Source of the DNA: Haloplanus rubicundus
GTDB lineage: Archaea; Halobacteriota; Halobacteria; Halobacteriales; Haloferacaceae
Direction: 5' to 3'
NCBI RefSeq assembly: GCF_003342675.1
Contig: NZ_CP031148.1
Coordinates: 2,852,001 to 2,916,000 of the forward strand
Length of the DNA: 64,000 bases
Numbering within the stretch: the first letter of the stretch is position 1; each line of letters opens with the position of its first letter. Under the pieces are notes generated by a model. That model was not told where the DNA came from and did not search any database. It worked only from the letters and a program-made list of their open reading frames with translations. Of the stretch, positions 27,899 to 30,395 are shown piece by piece. Position numbers and translations under genes: made by a program.

Positions 27899-27947
27899 TC
27901 CGTACGAGCCGAGCTTTTTATCCGGGGACGCCGCCAGCGTGGGGATA

Positions 27948-30395
27948 ATGGGCGAGACGTGGCGGGCGGTGTTCGGCCACGACGAGCCGTACCCCGAACA
28001 GGCCGACGGCATCGAGACGGCCATCGAGACGGCCGACCGGGGCGGGTTCGCGGTGATCGAAGGCGCCTGCGGCACCGGCAAGACGATGCTCGCGCTGACC
28101 GCGGGCATCGACCGCGTGCGCGACCCCGACTCCGACTTCGAGCGGGTGGTCGTGCTCACGAGCGTCAAACAGCAACTCCGACAGTTCGAGGCGGACGTGC
28201 GCACGATCAACGAGAACCTTCCCGACGACTGGCGGCCCGTCTCGGCGCTGACGCTCGTCGGCAAGGCCGACGTGTGTCCGTACAGCCGGGAGCGAGTGGG
28301 ACGGATCGACGAGTCGACCGTCTACGACCGCTGTGAGGGGCTCCGCGAGCGGACGCGCAACCTGACCGGGAGCGAAGGACCGACGACGGCGGCGACGCTG
28401 GCGTCGGAGGCCCGACAGGCTCAGACCGGCCTCCTCGACTCGGACGGCACCGCGTCGGCGACGCCGGACTACCTCGAAACTGCGGGCGAACCGACGCCCT
28501 ACCTTCCCGACACTGCCGAGTACGGCGACACCGAATACTGCCCCTTCTACGCGCAGTATCTCGACGATTTGCCCGAGGACGGCGACCCCGTCGAGGCCGT
28601 CCCCTTCGACTTCGCGGACGCCGGCCTCCTCGACACCGAGGACCTCGTCGGCCTCGCGGCGGGCCACGGCACCTGCCCGCACTCGATGCTCGGGGCGTTG
28701 CTCCCCCACGTCGAAGTCGTGATCGGCAACTACTACCACGCGTTCGACCCGCGGACGGTCGACTCCTTCACCGGCGCCCTCCTCGACGATTCGACCTTCG
28801 TGGTCTGTGACGAGGCGCACATGCTCGAACCGCGGGTGCGCGACCTGGTGAGCGACGGGGTGGCCGACGCCACCCTGCGGGACGCCGAGTCGGAACTGAC
28901 TCGGGTGATCCAGCCGGTCGAGTTCGACAGCGAGGCGTCGGAGACGCCTCGGGCAGCCGGCGAAACCGGCGACAGCGAGGGATCGAAGATCCCTCGGGCA
29001 GCCGGCGAAACCGGCGACGACGCGGAGCGGCGTTCCACCGGAACGGACTCGCAGGACGCCGCCCTCGTTCGCGGCGAACTGGAGGAGACGGACGTGAGTC
29101 TCGCGGAACTGAAAGAGACGCGGGCGTTCGTCCGCGACTTGCGCGAAGAACTCGACCGCCGGGTGCGCGCCCACCTCGACCGGGAGCATCCGGCGTGGCG
29201 GACGGCGATGGACGACCTGCCGGACGACGAAATCCCCCTCCGCGACCCGGAGACGCCGGAACCCGACCGGCTAACGGAGTGGGCCGAGGGCGCGTACGGC
29301 GACGACGTGTGGGTGCGCGCCGAGACGGTCGGCGCCGTCGTCGCGCGGGCGTTGAACGAACTGGAGGAGGAGGACCGCGAGCGTGCCGCCCCCACCGCAG
29401 GCCGGGTGCTGGGCGCGTGGTACCGCGCGGACCACGGTCGGTACTTCCGGTCGATCGATCTCTCGCGGACGTGGAACGAGGCCGAACCCCCCGATTCGTG
29501 GCGCCGCGCCTACAACGCGCGGCTGTCGCTACACAACTGCGTCCCCGGCGACGCCATCGCGGACCGCCTGGGCGACTTCGGCGGCGGCGTGTTGATGTCG
29601 GCGACGCTCGAACCGCTGTCGGTGTTCCGGACCGTCACGGGACTGGACGACCTGGAGGCCGACGGCCGACCGGTCGTCGAGCGGACGTACGGTCTCTCCT
29701 TCCCCGCCGAGAACCGCGCGAGTTTCGCCGTCGACGCGCCGGCCTTCACCCACGAGAACCGCGGGTCGCCGGGGTCGGAGAGCGACACCAGGCGGATGTA
29801 CGTCGACGCCGTCGCCGAGGTGGCGAGTCGGGAGGGGAACGTCCTGGTCGGGATGCCGAACTACGCCGAGGCGGAGTGGATGGCCGGCGAGTTGGAGGCC
29901 CGTCTCGACACGCCAGTGCTGCTCGACGAGTCGAGCGACGACGGGGCGACGGAGGCGTTGAAGTCGGACTTCTTCGCCGGCGGGTCGAAGACGCTCGTCA
30001 CCAGCCTCCGGGGGACGCTCACGGAGGGCGTCGACTACCGGGGTGACCGCCTGCACGCGGCGGTGGTCTGTGGGGTCCCCCTCGTCGATACGACGCTGCC
30101 GCGAACGCGGGCGGTCGTGACGGCGTACGACCGCGCGTTCGGGAGCGACGGGCGCGGCGGCCGAAGCGGGTTCGAGACCGCGCTGACGGTGCCGGCGGTC
30201 AGGAAGGCCCGGCAGGCGGTCGGGCGGGTGATCCGCGGGCCCGACGAGCGCGGGGTCCGCGTGTTCGTCGACACCCGCTACGCTCGCGACCGGTGGAACG
30301 GCGTGCGGGAGTATTTCCCCGAGTGGGAGCGCGAGGAGTTCCAGCCCGTCAGCCCGGATATGCTGTCGCTGGGGCTGGAGCGGTTCGGCGGATAG
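27948..30395 (+). CDS. XPD/Rad3-type DNA helicase
   Basis: An 815-residue superfamily-2 5'-3' helicase of the XPD/Rad3/DinG group used in DNA repair. Walker A is GACGTGKT (K45), the Fe-S-cluster cysteines are C110, C129, C198 and C243, Walker B is DEAH (D288-H291), and motif VI QAVGRVIRG lies near residue 755. ATG 27948 is preferred over GTG 27939 because a TATA box (ctttttat) ends 27 bases upstream. After the DEAH box a linker of about 50 residues (about 320-370) contains the 45-base hairpin repeat listed separately and a variable TGTDSQ segment. The insertion is unlike the flanking protein. Confidence 0.93.
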   Translation: MGETWRAVFGHDEPYPEQADGIETAIETADRGGFAVIEGACGTGKTMLALTAGIDRVRDPDSDFERVVVLTSVKQQLRQFEADVRTINENLPDDWRPVSALTLVGKADVCPYSRERVGRIDESTVYDRCEGLRERTRNLTGSEGPTTAATLASEARQAQTGLLDSDGTASATPDYLETAGEPTPYLPDTAEYGDTEYCPFYAQYLDDLPEDGDPVEAVPFDFADAGLLDTEDLVGLAAGHGTCPHSMLGALLPHVEVVIGNYYHAFDPRTVDSFTGALLDDSTFVVCDEAHMLEPRVRDLVSDGVADATLRDAESELTRVIQPVEFDSEASETPRAAGETGDSEGSKIPRAAGETGDDAERRSTGTDSQDAALVRGELEETDVSLAELKETRAFVRDLREELDRRVRAHLDREHPAWRTAMDDLPDDEIPLRDPETPEPDRLTEWAEGAYGDDVWVRAETVGAVVARALNELEEEDRERAAPTAGRVLGAWYRADHGRYFRSIDLSRTWNEAEPPDSWRRAYNARLSLHNCVPGDAIADRLGDFGGGVLMSATLEPLSVFRTVTGLDDLEADGRPVVERTYGLSFPAENRASFAVDAPAFTHENRGSPGSESDTRRMYVDAVAEVASREGNVLVGMPNYAEAEWMAGELEARLDTPVLLDESSDDGATEALKSDFFAGGSKTLVTSLRGTLTEGVDYRGDRLHAAVVCGVPLVDTTLPRTRAVVTAYDRAFGSDGRGGRSGFETALTVPAVRKARQAVGRVIRGPDERGVRVFVDTRYARDRWNGVREYFPEWEREEFQPVSPDMLSLGLERFGG
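28925..29018 (+). repeat. Two tandem 45-bp hairpin units inside the XPD helicase gene
   Basis: Unit 1 spans 28925-28969 and unit 2 spans 28970-29014, with a final cgac. Each encodes 15 residues (D327-G341 and D342-G356) ending PRAAGETG. Each holds two hairpins. Stem A is cgaggcgtc/gacgcctcg in unit 1 and cgagggatc/gatccctcg in unit 2: two base pairs change on both arms so pairing is kept. Stem B is gccgg/ccggc in both. A partial match (cagccggcgaaa) recurs near 63092. Confidence 0.85.

Follow-up and report, generated by a model that had tools for sequence, protein, structure and literature searches.

The XPD-like (ERCC2-family) DNA helicase gene of Haloplanus rubicundus contains two tandem, hairpin-forming units in a linker, and the question that they raise is whether they belong to the helicase, to the structure of its mRNA, or to an element that came from elsewhere. 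The gene (27939..30395, plus strand) lies in a window of 64,000 nt, the whole stretch of DNA that was analysed (C2:2852001-2916000 of the 3.77-Mb genome), and encodes a DEAD_2/Helicase_C_2 protein of 818 aa with matches to PF06733 and PF13307 above cut-off. A preliminary description of this DNA had claimed two 45-base tandem hairpin units in the gene, the 9-bp pairing of stem A being kept despite two differing base pairs and stem B being identical, and these observations were confirmed at 28925-29014, where the direct repeats 28925-28969 and 28970-29014, 45 nt each, are 89% identical. Taken with both terminal GAC, unit 1 (DSEASETPRAAGETGD; 28926..28973, plus strand) has the GCGTC version of stem A and unit 2 (DSEGSKIPRAAGETGD; 28971..29018, plus strand; 73 bits) the GGATC version. 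Hairpin A of unit 1, CGAGGCGTC-GGA-GACGCCTCG (28931..28951, plus strand), pairs 28931-28939 with 28943-28951, and that of unit 2, CGAGGGATC-GAA-GATCCCTCG (28976..28996, plus strand), pairs 28976-28984 with 28988-28996, so that two base pairs and one base of the three-base loop differ between them. Hairpin B, GCCGG-CGAAA-CCGGC, has the same 5-bp stem in both (28956..28970 and 29001..29015, plus strand). The three-base GNA loops found in type-1 units recall a kind of DNA mini-hairpin that is known to be very stable.

As single-stranded DNA the XPD stretch folded into exactly the four expected hairpins, with an energy of -33.8 kcal/mol compared with -20.9 +/- 2.3 for shuffled sequences (z -5.7; none of 200 shuffles as good). 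An Rfam search of 28700-29300 returned only mir-1307, far below the gathering score (E 0.79), and the AlphaFold model of the helicase, in which the insert is a coil between two helices, was poor (mean pLDDT 50.5) and was given no weight. The insertion begins some 35 residues downstream of the DEAH box, in keeping with the position first described, but its extent was underestimated, since the linker exceeds that of the Haloplanus genome G001 by 38 codons (114 nt) and thus by more than two units. The remaining 24 nt or so may represent a decayed third unit, of type 2, near 29019..29048 (plus strand), where the peptide DAERRSTGTD resembles DGAERRSASSRPAADD-type copies and no model match was obtained; a similar stretch also follows the unit in G009.

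The unit is not confined to this gene. Three-mismatch and stem-pattern searches of the same genome found it in other genes, in frame, with the consensus stem GAG...CTC, linker, second stem and GAC, and a covariance model, R1, was built from 14 of these copies with seeds chosen by eye. R1 gave 80 matches in the H. rubicundus genome at E<=1, of which 42 scored at least 31 bits. A search of haloarchaeal genomes with stem pairing modelled, as the preliminary description had proposed, matched the unit at E<=0.01 in 106 of the family's 119 genomes and in 26 of its 28 genera, counts that include weaker matches and for which at most 50 candidates were scored per genome. A control model with sequences reversed and structure mirrored gave, at the same limit, a single match of 30.7 bits in one of the 119 genomes. 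In a sample of the phylum searched at E<=1e-8, 50 of 392 genomes matched, and all 50 were the H. rubicundus genome itself or from the same genus, family or order, the order being, as we infer, the haloarchaea. R1 E-values are too small on GC-rich DNA, and chance-like matches elsewhere in the window reached 21.4 bits; the count of reading frames was therefore restricted to matches of at least 31 bits. One step of the locus work took in a subset of 77 loci, and the off-centre rows L187, L191, L195, L242 and L247 were left out of one assessment. The exact type-1 pattern had no match in viral contigs, and partial matches were found in the plasmids of four haloarchaeal records, among them a plasmid of Halosolutus gelatinilyticus (L332, NZ_CP095492.1), our named example from the Natrialbaceae, with GGETSETSQADGEAVD in frame in a FadB-like gene.

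The copies found elsewhere in the genome bear on the origin of the XPD pair. Stem A and the loop of unit 2 are identical to a copy at C2:1705603-1705621. The preliminary description had taken the paired differences between the units as a sign of selection on structure; they do not support compensatory mutation in place, and conversion best explains the changed XPD stem. Both XPD units share the base A in the loop of stem B (CGAAA), and the 22-nt sequence that contains it occurs exactly in this genome only in these two units, while four other matches within three mismatches lack it. Duplication followed by conversion or stem-tip replacement would thus be the simplest history of the pair. Gene conversion, which had been named at the outset as an explanation that would undo the structural interpretation of the paired changes, is the best account of those in XPD, but it does not account for those of the family.

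The lengths of the copies are closely tied to their coding. Among the 42 copies of at least 31 bits, length was divisible by three in 34 and not in eight, and a coding signal in plus phase 0 on both flanks was seen in 25 of the 34 and in none of the eight (Fisher p 2e-4); of these 25 copies, 21 were 48 nt long and two were 51 nt long, and the other two measured 39 and 57 nt. In an alignment of 81 copies, A4, the coding signal was present in 36 of 55 copies with lengths divisible by three and in one of 26 others (Fisher p 5e-8), the exception being L185 (50 nt). The frame calls are composition-based and imperfect, with a cut-off of 0.2 chosen by the analyst, and among the 55 copies they left 14 without a call and gave five other calls. 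Of these five, L165 and L174 were assigned to plus phase 0 by NCBIfam matches over cut-off and L169 by weak ones, which leaves L176 and L186; none of the 81 copies was shown to code in another frame. When two sample units, of the two types tested, were translated in all six frames, net charge was lowest in the frame in use (-3 and +1). A stop was met in one of these twelve translations (type 1, frame +2), and stops alone thus do not explain the frame bias. With regard to a target-site duplication, GAC stands on both sides of most coding-length copies and also at the 3' end of copies of other lengths, and the GAC repeats make the unit boundaries ambiguous. Across the 81 copies the conserved ends read AGCGAG... 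and ...GAC, which do not form an inverted pair. The unit lacks the terminal inverted repeats of a parent transposon that characterise a MITE, such a parent having been sought among Y1 elements. As for an unpaired CGTC end of the REP kind, most copies start with GTC when read on the opposite strand, and a C stands before it in 37 of the 55 and in 16 of the 26. We also observed a tandem of two 46-nt units with a period of 43 (L312, C2:921351-921439), which has no coding signal and does not keep the frame.

The host genes are unrelated to one another. By Pfam and NCBIfam matches, those of H. rubicundus include TrpE, a Trm5-family methyltransferase, PolX, an archaeal helicase with domain 4, LysA, a metal P-type ATPase, an SDR enzyme, a hydroxymethylpyrimidine kinase, two histidine kinases and a protein with a glucose/sorbosone dehydrogenase-like match, together with a calcineurin-type phosphoesterase that is probably Mre11-like. 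In one set of ten host proteins, L148 and L159 had no family match and L161 and L169 had matches below cut-off only. The flanks of six of the genes were used to locate orthologues in Haloplanus, and 59 regions were aligned. The Trm5-family gene of H. rubicundus has 45 extra nt that are missing from all 11 other genomes, with no other indel shown, and in TrpE the site is filled in H. rubicundus only, one of 12 genomes. The archaeal helicase is filled in two of 12, with a shortened unit in H. rubicundus and a full 45 nt in G004; G003 has another insert, and the row for G010 may be a paralogue (72% identity). PolX is likewise filled in two of 12 (H. rubicundus and G009), and G003 and G006 carry other inserts. 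The Mre11-like gene has two units in H. rubicundus, a decayed one in G007, another insert in G005 and, by our reading, remnants in G001 and G008, and the glucose dehydrogenase-like gene has the unit in H. rubicundus as compared with the four orthologues found. Where the comparison is clean, a GAC is already present in the target, and a filled site is bounded by GAC on either side. As the host linkers also vary by other insertions, they appear to be tolerant places. Units were also noted in or beside the N box of ORFs that resemble histidine kinases (L217, L218 and L219 in G001; L167 and L318 in H. rubicundus), where the adjoining VEHGST motifs are themselves hairpin-encoded; kinase identity was confirmed for L167 alone among the five.

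The units are thus dispersed, occupy sites that are empty in close relatives, add 45 nt in the clean cases, have GAC at each end of most coding-length copies, lie predominantly in one orientation and frame and have covarying stems. The XPD repeat is a member of this dispersed family of 45-nt double-hairpin units, and we consider it likely that these are non-autonomous mobile elements copied by an enzyme acting in trans; the family itself is, to judge from its sequences, probably mobile. The suggestion in the preliminary description of an in-frame palindromic unit, probably mobile and duplicated in a linker, accordingly gains support from the dispersal in unrelated genes and from the empty sites. 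A hairpin-forming single-stranded DNA copy of the unit would be the intermediate, which a putative enzyme supplied in trans would copy into GAC sites, and a filter of selection would keep the extra peptide only where it is tolerated. The length of 45 nt preserves the reading frame, and the frame of lowest charge would suit salt-in proteins. Settled units may then undergo tandem duplication and swap their stem tips, which would give the XPD pair. More tentatively, and with the balance tilted against it, the unit could be a frame-locked, protein-coding mobile element that has dispersed across haloarchaeal proteomes with no transposase of its own; both arms of a stem tip would change at once through hairpin-templated copying of DNA, and each hop would give core enzymes a new, often acidic, 15-residue surface loop.

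The main rival to a trans-acting enzyme is template switching at replication with no dedicated enzyme, whereby hairpins would cause stalling, GAC microhomology would let short patches pass from one genomic copy to another and snap-back synthesis would perfect the palindromes. Such a process would account for the GAC on both sides of most coding-length copies, the patches of 45 nt, the Watson-Crick stems with few G-T intermediates, the replacement of a stem tip in XPD and the missing association with a transposase that is described below. However, unrelated sites show a recurrent gain of 45 nt whose ends are constant, which is more regular than would be expected of microhomology, and we regard template switching as unlikely.

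A second proposal is that the units derive from IS200/IS605 elements (PATE-like) or are REPs, and are moved by a hairpin-recognising Y1 HUH transposase (TnpA/RAYT). It has in its favour the hairpin DNA itself, the nine Y1 (PF01797) matches in the H. rubicundus genome, of which six were tested and all proved to be of the IS200 TnpA type, falling short of the RAYT cut-off, and the PATEs of Haloquadratum, which in the accessible text of their description have near-terminal palindromes (PMC3119063). Y1 matches were present in 79 of the 119 genomes, yet their counts were not correlated with those of the element (Spearman -0.04, p 0.68; E<=0.01, at most 50 candidates scored per genome), and seven genomes with 15-34 element matches had no Y1 match (G007, G017, G024, G043, G066, G079 and G095). 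The RAYT model NF047646 gave weak matches in 70 of the 119 genomes and none over cut-off, and a search of the nine Y1 loci of H. rubicundus gave one match above noise, which at 27.9 bits and with its stem tip missing was not convincing. The comparison took in the Y1 and RAYT transposases. Movement by a Y1 transposase is thus improbable on these counts, and a Y1-type mover may now be lost or very diverged. The one match among the Y1 loci (L231:611-649) lies some 0.9 kb away from a Y1 gene that is interrupted by a TGA.

We then consider whether selection on the structure of the mRNA, as in regulatory or stability hairpins, maintains the stems, which pair in 97.5% of cells in A4, with the peptide being incidental. 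The count of covariation that had been proposed gave 136 double-changed cells against a shuffle mean of 33.9, with none of 500 shuffles as high and slid controls at no more than 23, and the stems are also kept in copies without a coding signal. As A4 was made to fit the structure and paired copies have an advantage under the search model, the paired percentage leans upward and the covariation is to be read in that light, while the ratio of G-T to A-C is expected to lean less. Selection on RNA should favour G-U over A-C. In the 1028 stem cells of the 81 copies there were 997 Watson-Crick pairs, six G-T and eight A-C, so that G-T is no commoner than A-C, which suggests pairing as DNA and not selection on RNA. 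The units are, moreover, found in unrelated ORFs, and many orthologues lack them, making the mRNA explanation very improbable. The earlier inference of selection on DNA or RNA structure is therefore retained in part: RNA is disfavoured, and hairpin-templated copying of DNA, or a constraint on DNA, fits better. Two further patterns were noted among the copies. In genus g14, copies that lack a coding signal (L214-L216, L220, L221 and L223-L225) lie inside a longer stretch of several hairpins, and the outer arms of this stretch, GGCGCGTGC and GCACGCGC, look complementary, with variants. In G004, four copies (L206, L207, L209 and L210) are identical across the 186 nt compared and include the inverted repeat gcccctttcagtcccgcccg...gcgggtgggactgaaaggggc.

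At the XPD locus itself, alignment of orthologues, a check that had been proposed, showed that the insertion is variable. A unit is present in three of 12 Haloplanus genomes and in two types: G009 carries a single unit, of the type found in H. rubicundus, G004 has a unit of the second type (DGVEGRSPSGNRTRSGD), and the linkers of the other nine (G001-G003, G005-G008, G010 and G011) have none. The covariance model matched the same three loci only, with unit 1 of H. rubicundus, which overlaps unit 2 by GAC, missing from the 12-locus listing and present in that of its genome. In the protein alignment one unit is present in H. salinus (P0001) and none in the 14 homologues that rank next (P0002-P0015; 83-90% identical), P0007 carrying a short ERRST stretch at the position. 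R1 found nothing above 22 bits in 80 XPD loci of other haloarchaea, and XPD is thus not a general home of the unit. That the unit is a conserved functional insertion and a fixed feature of the XPD domain, a reading suggested by its presence in two related species, is refuted by the nine Haloplanus genomes without it and by the different unit that G004 has instead.

The closest parallel lies in bacteria. Rickettsia is the best-known source of palindromes that code in frame, and the double-hairpin elements of fungal mitochondria also have two adjacent hairpins and apparent mobility. No report of in-frame palindromic elements in haloarchaea was found among the matches listed (titles and abstract openings), subscription literature being mostly outside the scope of the search. 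We conclude that the coding hairpin family of haloarchaea is real, widespread and probably mobile. Free-living archaea thus carry coding palindromes in enzymes of repair, tRNA modification and amino-acid synthesis, with clean empty sites in close relatives, and, if the units are mobile, the movement of tiny elements with no obvious transposase and the supply of new acidic loops to halophilic proteins would become testable in cultivable haloarchaea. Like the PATEs and the small mobile repeats of Haloquadratum, the unit is haloarchaeal and transposase-free. The accessible text describes the PATEs as IS605-related and without transposase, with near-terminal palindromes, and SMR-A as about 110 bp with inverted termini and as targeting other elements, and it describes for neither the in-frame coding seen in the 45-nt unit (PMC3119063). 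Derivation from IS200/IS605 as a PATE was not supported, the ends of the H. rubicundus Y1 loci giving no convincing match and the 119 genomes showing no dependence on TnpA. The GTAG/CGTC-tagged REPs, including RPE-4 and RPE-6, share with the unit short hairpins, intragenic copies, dimers and stem variants, and the CGTC type is described, in the accessible text, as having no dedicated transposase (PMC3733652); in contrast to the GTAG REPs, the unit has no GTAG at its conserved ends in 81 copies, and none of the 119 genomes has a RAYT match over cut-off. The closest kind, as far as the accessible accounts go, are the Rickettsia palindromic elements, which are palindromic, about 150 bp as first reported, and inserted in frame in many unrelated genes with a conserved peptide (PMC10969869, PMC3733652). 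The haloarchaeal unit resembles these by description: it too lies in frame in unrelated functional ORFs, but it is 45 nt long, GC-rich and archaeal, has two hairpins and is read in one predominant frame.
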